DNA of 64,000 nucleotides from Dehalogenimonas formicexedens (GTDB taxonomy: Bacteria; Chloroflexota; Dehalococcoidia; Dehalococcoidales; Dehalococcoidaceae): contig NZ_CP018258.1 in NCBI RefSeq assembly GCF_001953175.1, forward strand, positions 1,950,210-2,014,209, in the 5' to 3' direction. Below, one piece after another: positions 9,535-12,785 of the stretch; position 1 is the first letter of the stretch; every line of letters begins with the position of its first letter. The position numbers and the translations under genes are program-made. A model generated the notes under the pieces. It was not told the origin of the DNA. It saw only the letters and a program-made list of their open reading frames with translations, and searched no databases.

Positions 9535-9693
9535 TTATTTCCCCTTCTTCCCCGCCCGTTTCTCGACGCTTTGCCGATAAATCAGCGCAATCGATTTACC
9601 GTGATGCGTCATCCGGTTTTTCTGCGCCTGGCGCTTCTTTTCCCGGCGCTCCTGGCGGGTTTCCGAGTAACCCTGATCGTTATCGCCTGGCAC
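9535..9693 (-). CDS. Small basic hypothetical protein overlapping the uvrB 3' end
   Basis: A 52-residue frame starts with GTG at 9693, inside the last codons of uvrB (overlap about 14 nt), and ends with TAA at 9535-9537. The product is very basic and probably alpha-helical: an [18 protein letters not shown] stretch, then [17 protein letters not shown] and a KKGK tail. Neighbouring frames across the same stretch are less protein-like, and the overlapping start suggests translational coupling to uvrB. I do not recognise a family; a nucleic-acid or ribosome-associated role is a guess from charge only. Confidence 0.5.
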
Positions 9694-11692
9694 GGGGCTT
9701 GGCCTCCGGTTCTATCAATTCACGTTTCAATTCAACAATCCGGTCGCGCAAGAGCGCCGCCCGTTCGAAGTCCATGATCTTGGCCGCCTTCTTCATCTGG
9801 GTGTCGAGTTCACGAATGAGACGAGCCAGGTCCTCCTTAGTCAGAGGCATGGCTTTGTAAGACTCGGCTGACTGCTCGGCTACCACCGCCTCGGCGGTGC
9901 GGATTCGTTCGGTGATATCCTTGATGGCTTTGCGGATGCCCTGCGGTGTGATGCCGTGCTCGGCGTTGTAGGCTTCCTGCACTTCACGCCGGCGCTTGAC
10001 CTCGGCGATGGCCCGCTCCATGGAGCCGGTCATATTATCAGCGTACATGATAACCCGGCCGTCGACGTGGCGGGCAGCACGACCCATTGTCTGGATGAGC
10101 GCCCACTCGGAACGGAGGAAACCCTCCTTATCGGCATCGAGGATGGCAACGAGAGAGACCTCCGGAAGGTCCAAGCCCTCACGGAGAAGGTTGATGCCGA
10201 CGACCACGTCGTAGACACCCAATCGAAGATCGCGCAGTATCTCCACCCGCTCGAAGGTTTCAACCTCTGAATGCAGGTACTGGGTCTTGATCCCTGATTC
10301 GGCAATGTATTCCGATAAAGTCTCCGCCAGTTTCTTGGTCAGTGTGGTCACCAGACAGCGCTCGCCCTTCTCAACCCTCAGTTTAATCTGGTACAGCAGG
10401 TCGTCGATCTGGCCCTCAGTCGGTTTCACCTCGATAATGGGTTCGAGGAGTCCGGTCGGCCGAACGAGTTGCTCGACAGTGTTCTGAGAATGTTCCTTCT
10501 CGTAAGGCCCGGGCGTCGCCGAGACGTAAACCACCTGCTCGAAACGCTGCCGGAATTCGGAAAAGTTCAAGGGCCGGTTGTCCATGGCCGACGGCAGCCG
10601 GAAACCGTAATCGACAAGGACTTCCTTACGTGCCCGGTCTCCGTTGTACATGCCCCGGATCTGGGGCAGCGACATGTGGGACTCATCGACAAACAGGATG
10701 AAATCCTTGGGGAAATAATCCAGCAGCGTCCATGGCGCCGAACCCGCCGGCCTGCCGGAGAGGTGCCGGGCATAATTCTCCACGCCGTTGCAATAACCGG
10801 CTTGTTCCAACATCTCAATGTCGTATTCGGTGCGCTGTTCCAACCGGGCGGCTTCGAGGAGTTTACCTTCTTTCTTCAGTTGCTCCACCCGCTGCGCCAG
10901 CTCCTCCCGGATGGCCTGGATAGCCTTGACAAGCTTTTCCGGCGAGGTGACGAAATGCTTGGCCGGGTAGATATCCACCATCTTGAGCTCTTCCAGCATC
11001 TCGCCGGTAAGCGGATCTATCCTCACCATGCGCTCGATCTCATCGCCGAAGAATTCGATCCGCAGAGCCGTTTCCTCGTAAGCCGGGTGCAGTTCTAGCG
11101 TATCTCCCCGCAGCCGGAACTTCGACCGCGAAAAATCGAGGTCGTTTCGCTCGTATTGCATATCGACCAGTTTGTGCAGGATCTCTGCCCTCGGGTACCG
11201 CGCCCCTTTTTCGAGATTCAGAACGAAGCGCATGTATTCTTCAGGTTCGCCGAGGCCGTAGATACAGGAAACCGAGGCGACGATGATGGTGTCCCGGCGC
11301 GACAGGAGCGACCTGGTAGCGGCATGCCGGAGCTTGTCGATCTCGTCGTTGATGTCGGCATCTTTTTCGATGTACATATCCTTGGATGGAACGTACGCTT
11401 CAGGCTGGTAGTAATCGTAGTAGCTGACAAAATATTCGACGGCGTTGTTGGGGAAAAACTCCCGGAACTCGGCGTAGAGCTGGGCCGCCAGGGTCTTGTT
11501 GTGGGAAATGATCAGCGCCGGGCGGCCGCAGCGGGCGATGATGTTGGCCATAGTGAAAGTCTTGCCCGAGCCGGTGACGCCGAGCAGGGTCTGGTCCTTA
11601 AGACCATCGGCGAGGCCCTTGGTCAACCCCGCCACCGCCCCAGGTTGATCACCCATAAGTCCAAAATCGGAAATAAGATTGAATTCAGGCAT
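9680..11692 (-). CDS. uvrB: Excinuclease ABC subunit B
   Basis: 670 residues from ATG 11692 ([20 protein letters not shown]), the family's usual start and length; the frame is open further upstream but that part is repeat and transposase sequence. UvrB is the damage-verification helicase of nucleotide excision repair, acting with UvrA and UvrC. Visible motifs: Walker [13 protein letters not shown], the beta-hairpin region [31 protein letters not shown] (motif II), REGLDLPEV and QTMGRAARH (motifs V and VI), and the C-terminal UVR motif [20 protein letters not shown]. The start codon overlaps the stop of the RAYT transposase, and only a weak ribosome site is seen. A small frame overlaps its 3' end. 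uvrA and uvrC are not in the window. Confidence 0.97.
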
Positions 11693-12239
11693 TTTTCGTG
11701 TAGGGGCGGGTCGTTGACCCAACCTTTCTCTCTGTCCGCGGATTCTCTTCATCATCTGCCCAACCGACCGGGTTGGTCTCGATGTAATCGTAAATAGTGT
11801 TCAGGTCTTGTTCGTCCCGGATGATATGCTCGAAATAGTTTCGTTGCCAGACCGGGGTACCACGATTCCCGAGTTTCTTATTGCATCGGTTAGCCGAAAA
11901 ACTTTTGGCAAATCTTACAACTTCAGATAGCTGAATGGTGTTACGATTATCGGCTGTTTGATTGATAATAACTATCGCGTGTACGTGGTTGGGCATGACA
12001 ACACAGGAACCTATCTCGACCGATGGATAATGGGAAGGCAGCGCATCAATCACATCCCGGACAATACTACCCAATTCATTCAAATACATTTTACCGGCAA
12101 CGACGTCACCGAATAAACTCGTTCGGTTATTAGTACAAAACGTGACAAAATACGCCCCGGGCTGGTAATAATCGTACCCTTCGAGGCGAATCGAACGTCT
12201 ATGGTGGATTTTTAATTTACTATTCGGCATTTTCGTCAT
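11685..12239 (-). CDS. REP-associated tyrosine transposase (RAYT, Y1_Tnp)
   Basis: 184 residues. The N-terminus [20 protein letters not shown] is the usual RAYT opening; the HUH motif is in [12 protein letters not shown], and the catalytic Tyr is expected in [16 protein letters not shown], followed by [12 protein letters not shown]. These are single-strand-specific relatives of IS200/IS605 transposases that process REP hairpins. The last codons ([11 protein letters not shown]) run through a half copy of the flanking palindrome, and the stop TGA lies within the first codons of uvrB. Upstream lies a 198-bp tandem array repeating this gene's own 5' end with its REP hairpins. The gene looks intact. 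Confidence 0.92.
11700..11722. repeat. Half REP sequence at the RAYT/uvrB junction
   Basis: GTAGGGGCGGGTCGTTGACCC matches the first hairpin of the REP units at 12244, 12442 and 12640 but lacks the second half. It is read through as the last codons of the transposase and forms the immediate 5' flank of uvrB. Confidence 0.75.
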
Positions 12240-12692
12240 CTTATGTAGGGGCGGGTCGTTGACCCGCCCCGGGCAGGTTAAAAACCTGCCCCTACGAAAT
12301 CAACATTATCCGGGAGATGTTCCTTATCCATATAATTTCCTTTTCGGTGGGAATGATGTCATCGAGTAATCAAACCCCTCGAAATGGATCGAGCATCTAT
12401 GGTGGATTTTTAATTTACTATTCGGCATTTTCGTCATCTTATGTAGGGGCGGGTCGTTGACCCGCCCCGGGCAGGTTAAAAACCTGCCCCTACGAAATCA
12501 ACATTATCCGGGAGATGTTCCTTATCCATATAATTTCCTTTTCGGTGGAAATGACGTCACCGGATGATCAAACCCTTCGAGGCGAATCGAACGTCTATGG
12601 TGGATTTTTAATTTACTATTCGGCATTTTCGTCATCTTATGTAGGGGCGGGTCGTTGACCCGCCCCGGGCAGGTTAAAAACCTGCCCCTACG
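12174..12692. repeat. 198-bp tandem array of RAYT 5' end plus REP hairpins (2.6 units)
   Basis: Units begin at about 12174, 12372 and 12570 with an exact 198-bp period (shared word ATGGTGGATTTTT at 12201, 12399 and 12597). Each unit holds the first 20 or so codons of the RAYT gene in reverse orientation, then a REP pair: hairpin GGGGCGGGTC-GTT-GACCCGCCCC and hairpin GGGCAGGTT-AAA-AACCTGCCC, bounded by GTAGGGGC and GCCCCTAC. The first two units continue with about 75 bp of spacer; the third stops at the REP end. Only the unit at 12174 joins a complete transposase gene. Confidence 0.95.
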
Positions 12693-12785
12693 GGCACCGA
12701 CGAACGATTCGAAATGGTCTTGAATTCAGGCATACATTAAATTATAAGACATTTGGGCGATTATGTAACGGCATCAAATCGGTTG

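Follow-up and report, generated by a model that had tools for sequence, protein, structure and literature searches.

Tandem clusters of near-identical REPINs, with their flanking sequence included, have been described in P. fluorescens SBW25, where such clusters lie by each of three RAYTs (PMC3116915, Bertels and Rainey 2011). TnpA-REP cleaves next to REPs and can carry out strand transfer in vitro (PMC8266576). According to published descriptions, REPtrons do not transpose as a unit (PMC6006769), and larger target duplications are not known for IS200/IS605 transposition (PMC2817692). The way in which REPs are spread by RAYTs has yet to be solved. Here we analysed a stretch of 64,000 nucleotides from Dehalogenimonas formicexedens (the window) that carries a RAYT gene with a tandem array at its 5' side. 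The locus is probably a REPtron that inserted at the start of uvrB and whose 5' side was then enlarged by local tandem duplication.

The RAYT gene is flanked by two inverted GTAG-tagged REPs, namely the upstream REPIN and a 3' REP, with CTAC facing outward.

11685 to 12239, minus strand: RAYT (TnpA-REP) gene, 184 amino acids, HUH (NHVH) and catalytic-tyrosine motifs intact
11700 to 11720, plus strand: 3' REP with GTAG tag and truncated second arm, within the last RAYT codons; exact 22-nt match to the first hairpin of the REPIN, weak fold

The product matches the Y1 transposase domain (PF01797; 35.9 bits, cut-off 23, E 9e-9) and narrowly passes the RAYT subfamily model (NF047646; 80.5 bits, cut-off 80). 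Residues H85, H87, and Y135 are invariant in the alignment of the RAYT with four relatives. Membership in IS200/IS605 was rejected, as the score against the IS200 transposase model (NF033573) reaches 25.8 bits and stays below the cut-off of 55.

Upstream of the gene, three copies of the RAYT 5' end alternate with REPINs and spacers as follows.

12176 to 12239, minus strand: RAYT 5' end, copy 1, where the real gene starts
12245 to 12295, strand not applicable: REPIN 1, two inverted GTAG-tagged hairpins with no spacer between them
12296 to 12373, minus strand: middle-unit spacer, similar to RAYT nt 126-195 in decayed form, following a 55-nt deletion (score 16.5)
12374 to 12437, minus strand: RAYT 5' end, copy 2, matching the gene at 57/64 positions
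12443 to 12493, strand not applicable: REPIN 2
12494 to 12571, minus strand: outer-unit spacer, similar to RAYT nt 126-195 in decayed form (score 19.5)
12572 to 12635, minus strand: RAYT 5' end, copy 3, matching the gene at 64/64 positions
12641 to 12691, strand not applicable: REPIN 3

Tandem Repeats Finder, run on the window, reports a repeat at 12167-12692 with a period of 198, 2.7 copies, 92% matches, and a score of 926, and a repeat search of the window gave three copies in steps of exactly 198 bp. Read along the minus strand, each copy opens with a REPIN, which ATAAG separates from the RAYT start ATGACGAAAATG, whose ATG lies at 12635, 12437, and 12239. The array can be written as two units of REPIN, RAYT 5' end, and spacer, followed by a REPIN and the complete RAYT, and its outer end is the outer GTAG tag of REPIN 3. 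Over codons 1-21 (64 nt), the outermost copy is the same as the real gene at every position, and the middle copy differs from it at 7. The first-pass annotation had described three starts at an exact 198-bp periodicity, each with a two-hairpin REP and the 5' end of the RAYT gene, and a single unit joined to a complete gene; both searches bear out this layout, and the complete gene follows the copy at 12239 only. Its picture of a 198-bp unit repeated throughout stands for the roughly 120 bp common to all three copies (REPIN plus 64 nt of RAYT) and fails beyond it, where the innermost copy departs from the outer units after codon ~21 and the outer two share a spacer absent from the gene. Stops are present in all three minus-strand frames of every 198-bp unit, so the earlier remark that 198 is a multiple of 3 has no meaning for coding, and the array units are without a coding role. 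The same annotation had recognized the RAYT, the hairpins, and the periodicity, and had overlooked the RAYT-like nature of the spacer and the insertion at uvrB.

Each REPIN is 51 bp long and folds, at -23.6 kcal/mol and with z about -6 to -7, into two perfect hairpins, formed by two REPs in inverted orientation with their GTAG tags outward, and the hairpins end 5 nt ahead of the RAYT start. A search of the single genomic contig of 2,092,789 bp for both the unit and the lone hairpins, as had been suggested earlier, located the 198-bp unit at this site alone and found the hairpins on their own dispersed. The unit was consequently rejected as a dispersed element. The REPIN doublet was likewise not found elsewhere in the genome beyond its three tandem copies; we use the term REPIN here for its anatomy only. 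The exact REP with a CGTTG loop is confined to this locus, and nearly the same stem with a different loop is dispersed over about a dozen sites. Hairpins with this near-identical stem also make up tandem REP arrays near 1,616.8 kb (period 273/204) and near 1,830.3 kb (period 125), both with flanks unrelated to those of the RAYT-locus array, no RAYT codons, and no RAYT. These arrays indicate that tandem duplication carries along whatever adjoins a REP. With the unit at one site and unrelated flanks in the other arrays, the earlier reading that the RAYT mobilises units holding its own coding start is unsupported. The further idea of slipped synthesis on a REP intermediate survives in part: slippage or unequal exchange is possible and belongs to the class of mechanism we prefer, whereas a REP replication intermediate is not needed. 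Tandem duplication of a REP with neighboring sequence is a known habit, seen in the SBW25 clusters and in the two other arrays of this genome.

A strict pattern of GTAG-tagged hairpins with the same stem gave 29 matches in this genome versus 0-7 per Dehalogenimonas congener, and at one checked REP site (L023) the hairpin is absent from the sister genome G004. Because of these two observations, REPs of this stem appear to have spread recently in this genome.

The spacers of the outer two units were compared with the RAYT gene. The alignment is collinear after skipping 55 nt and corresponds approximately to codons 42-65. For the outer unit, the score is 19.5, whereas the null distribution averages 12.1 (p 0.002, shuffling), and no background segment of the window, out of 760, reaches that score. 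The similarity is modest in general and weaker in the middle unit, for which p is about 0.02 (dinucleotide shuffling) and 0.8% of the 760 background segments reach 16.5. An origin of the spacer from uvrB or from the upstream region was rejected, with scores no better than those of shuffles. These alignments support, but do not prove, the reading that the spacer derives from a part of RAYT that has decayed and suffered an internal deletion, and that each outer unit is a truncated RAYT relic cut by the next REPIN. Between the middle unit and the outer one there are 13 differences, every one of them a transition and confined to a 45-bp stretch, and the remaining 153 bp are identical; simple duplication followed by uniform decay does not explain this clustering. 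The 13 sites occupy window positions 12351-12395 (unit positions 43-87 on the minus strand), and some paired changes keep short palindromes. Codon changes in the middle RAYT copy are mostly non-synonymous.

The ends of the block are best described together with uvrB.

9680 to 11692, minus strand: open reading frame of the DNA-repair gene uvrB; the ATG at 11692, identified as the true start from seven congeners, overlaps the RAYT stop (ATGCCTGA)
11679 to 11692, minus strand: right copy of the 14-bp duplication ATGCCTGAATTCAA, the functional uvrB start
12692 to 12719, minus strand: 28-nt filler separating the duplicated uvrB start from REPIN 3, read directly, no source found
12720 to 12733, minus strand: ATGCCTGAATTCAA, left copy, the remnant of what was originally the uvrB start
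12741 to 12769, minus strand: GTTACA-17-TATAAT, the ancestral promoter of uvrB, from which the gene is now separated by about 1.05 kb

The old promoter and the left copy of the duplication lie together at about 12720-12769, on the far side of the array from the working uvrB, and in the congeners uvrB directly follows the TATAAT-ATG start. The duplication is exact and occurs nowhere else in the window. In G004, which has the same protease-like gene upstream of uvrB, the flanks of the block are 80 bp apart, and homology ends exactly at the uvrB ATG (11692). The RAYT-plus-array block of ~1.04 kb is absent from the uvrB site in 7/7 congeners, which together with the 14-bp duplication argues that it was gained rather than lost. 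Judged from these comparisons, the block is evidently an insertion at the uvrB start codon, flanked by a 14-bp copy of the first bases of uvrB. Given the IS200/IS605 chemistry (PMC2817692) and the reported immobility of REPtrons (PMC6006769), the duplication needs an unstated step.

Taken together, we consider it likely that the locus arose by insertion followed by local growth. A REPtron, that is, a RAYT with GTAG-tagged REPs, would have entered the uvrB start codon in this Dehalogenimonas lineage, and one truncated RAYT relic would have come to lie upstream of the intact REPIN-RAYT. Unequal exchange or replication slippage between the ~120-bp segments of REPIN and RAYT 5' end could then have turned one relic into two, and the same process may keep the shared segments identical. 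If the array has any role, it may serve as a hairpin leader in a transcript running from the old uvrB promoter through RAYT into uvrB, with the translation of the two genes possibly coupled at the ATGCCTGA overlap.

An active part of the RAYT in building the array is unlikely. The transposase would nick single-stranded DNA at GTAG-tagged REPs and rejoin a REP-bounded stretch, with the 5' end of the gene, beside itself; the in vitro activity of TnpA-REP beside REPs (PMC8266576) and the outer boundary of the array at a GTAG tag are consistent with this, but the inner boundary falls at codon ~21 rather than at a REP. The lack of dispersed copies of the 198-bp unit and the presence of tandem REP arrays without a RAYT in the same genome also argue against it. 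We gathered RAYT loci from a scan of genome contigs, from relatives, and from the phylum, and tested 174 full RAYTs. Copies that reach conserved RAYT codons were found at 2/174 loci, a rough rate given that the loci were sampled from draft genomes in which the upstream flank is sometimes short, and this rarity is a further point against the RAYT as the maker. One of the two is the window locus; at the other, L070, an 80% identical relic of the RAYT 5' end also stops at the GTAG of a REP and is followed by a complete gene, which speaks for RAYT action. As parallels, L113, L084, L125, L077, L110, L082, L202, L212, L246, and others, which have repeats upstream or downstream of the RAYT, were rejected, the inspected repeats being REPs or flank that stop at the RAYT start or no more than a few codons from it. 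A broader proposition, that the REP-ended RAYT 5' copies here and at L070 are by-products of strand transfer by the RAYT at REPs and that whole REPtrons can insert into genes with target duplication, is unlikely; if true, it would give a direct trace of how RAYTs move.

The survey yielded some side observations. A copy of the REP of the respective locus lies inside the coding sequence in 27/139 distinct RAYT genes from many phyla (loci including L043, L048, L067, L068, L070, L075, L084, L088, L092, and L236). It is located about 20-110 nt after the HUH codons, with none between codon ~30 and HUH and two further downstream, and it is translated through as peptides such as RATPASPLQ or VGAIHEL. 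The RAYT of the window has no such REP after HUH, and no description of the fixed in-gene position was found in the literature searched. A second RAYT (L048, G000:C1:2081700-2082209), whose REPs belong to a family of their own (GTAGGGGCGAGGCGAACGCCTCGCCC), is also missing from the syntenic site in G004, and a third, divergent RAYT (L052, G000:C1:1487830-1488141) is ringed by many GGTAGCTCAGGCATCTTGCCTGTG-type repeats of a different REP family.

We regard it as improbable that the array is what remains of several full RAYT copies side by side, with deletions between REPs independently removing the 3' parts of all but one. The resemblance of the spacer to an internal RAYT segment points in that direction, as does L252, where a partial 3' RAYT copy lies beside a full gene. 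The two outer units, however, have the spacer and its 55-nt internal deletion in common, so they derive from one relic by duplication and not independently. Selection on the array as a regulator of RAYT or uvrB, with hairpins that stop leaky transcription or translation, for example, is very unlikely: the stable hairpins close to the RAYT start and the old uvrB promoter upstream of the array would suit such a function, but the congeners hold no conserved counterpart and the mostly non-synonymous changes in the middle copy argue against it. Short tandem repeats are prone to mis-assembly, yet the 13 private differences of the middle unit and the single-contig genome make an assembly artefact hardly credible.

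On the favored reading of insertion and local duplication, the REPtron described here offers a concrete insertion event, with an empty site in sister genomes, a duplicated 14-bp target, and a housekeeping repair gene, uvrB, that stays readable behind it. The scar of this insertion is what most deserves to be followed up. The tandem array serves as a caution that repeated RAYT 5' ends need not mean that a RAYT copies such units.

Compared with known systems, the locus shares with IS200/IS605 elements the HUH/Y1 transposase fold family and the hairpin ends, but differs in its RAYT score (25.8 bits against the cut-off of 55) and in its target duplication, which is larger than expected there (PMC2817692). 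Like REPtrons (PMC2817692, PMC3733652, PMC6006769), it has a single full RAYT bordered on either side by GTAG-tagged REPs whose outer orientation is inverted, and REPs overlap the end of the gene. In contrast to REPtrons, which are described as not moving as a unit, the block is inserted at a gene start with a 14-bp duplication. The array resembles the SBW25 clusters (PMC3116915) in its head-to-tail, near-identical REPIN units with flanks near a RAYT, whereas here the repeated flank takes in the first codons of the RAYT itself together with a decayed stretch of RAYT, and within the REPIN one REP directly follows the other without a spacer. Clusters of REPINs plus flanks are already known, and what is new here is the unusually readable insertion scar.
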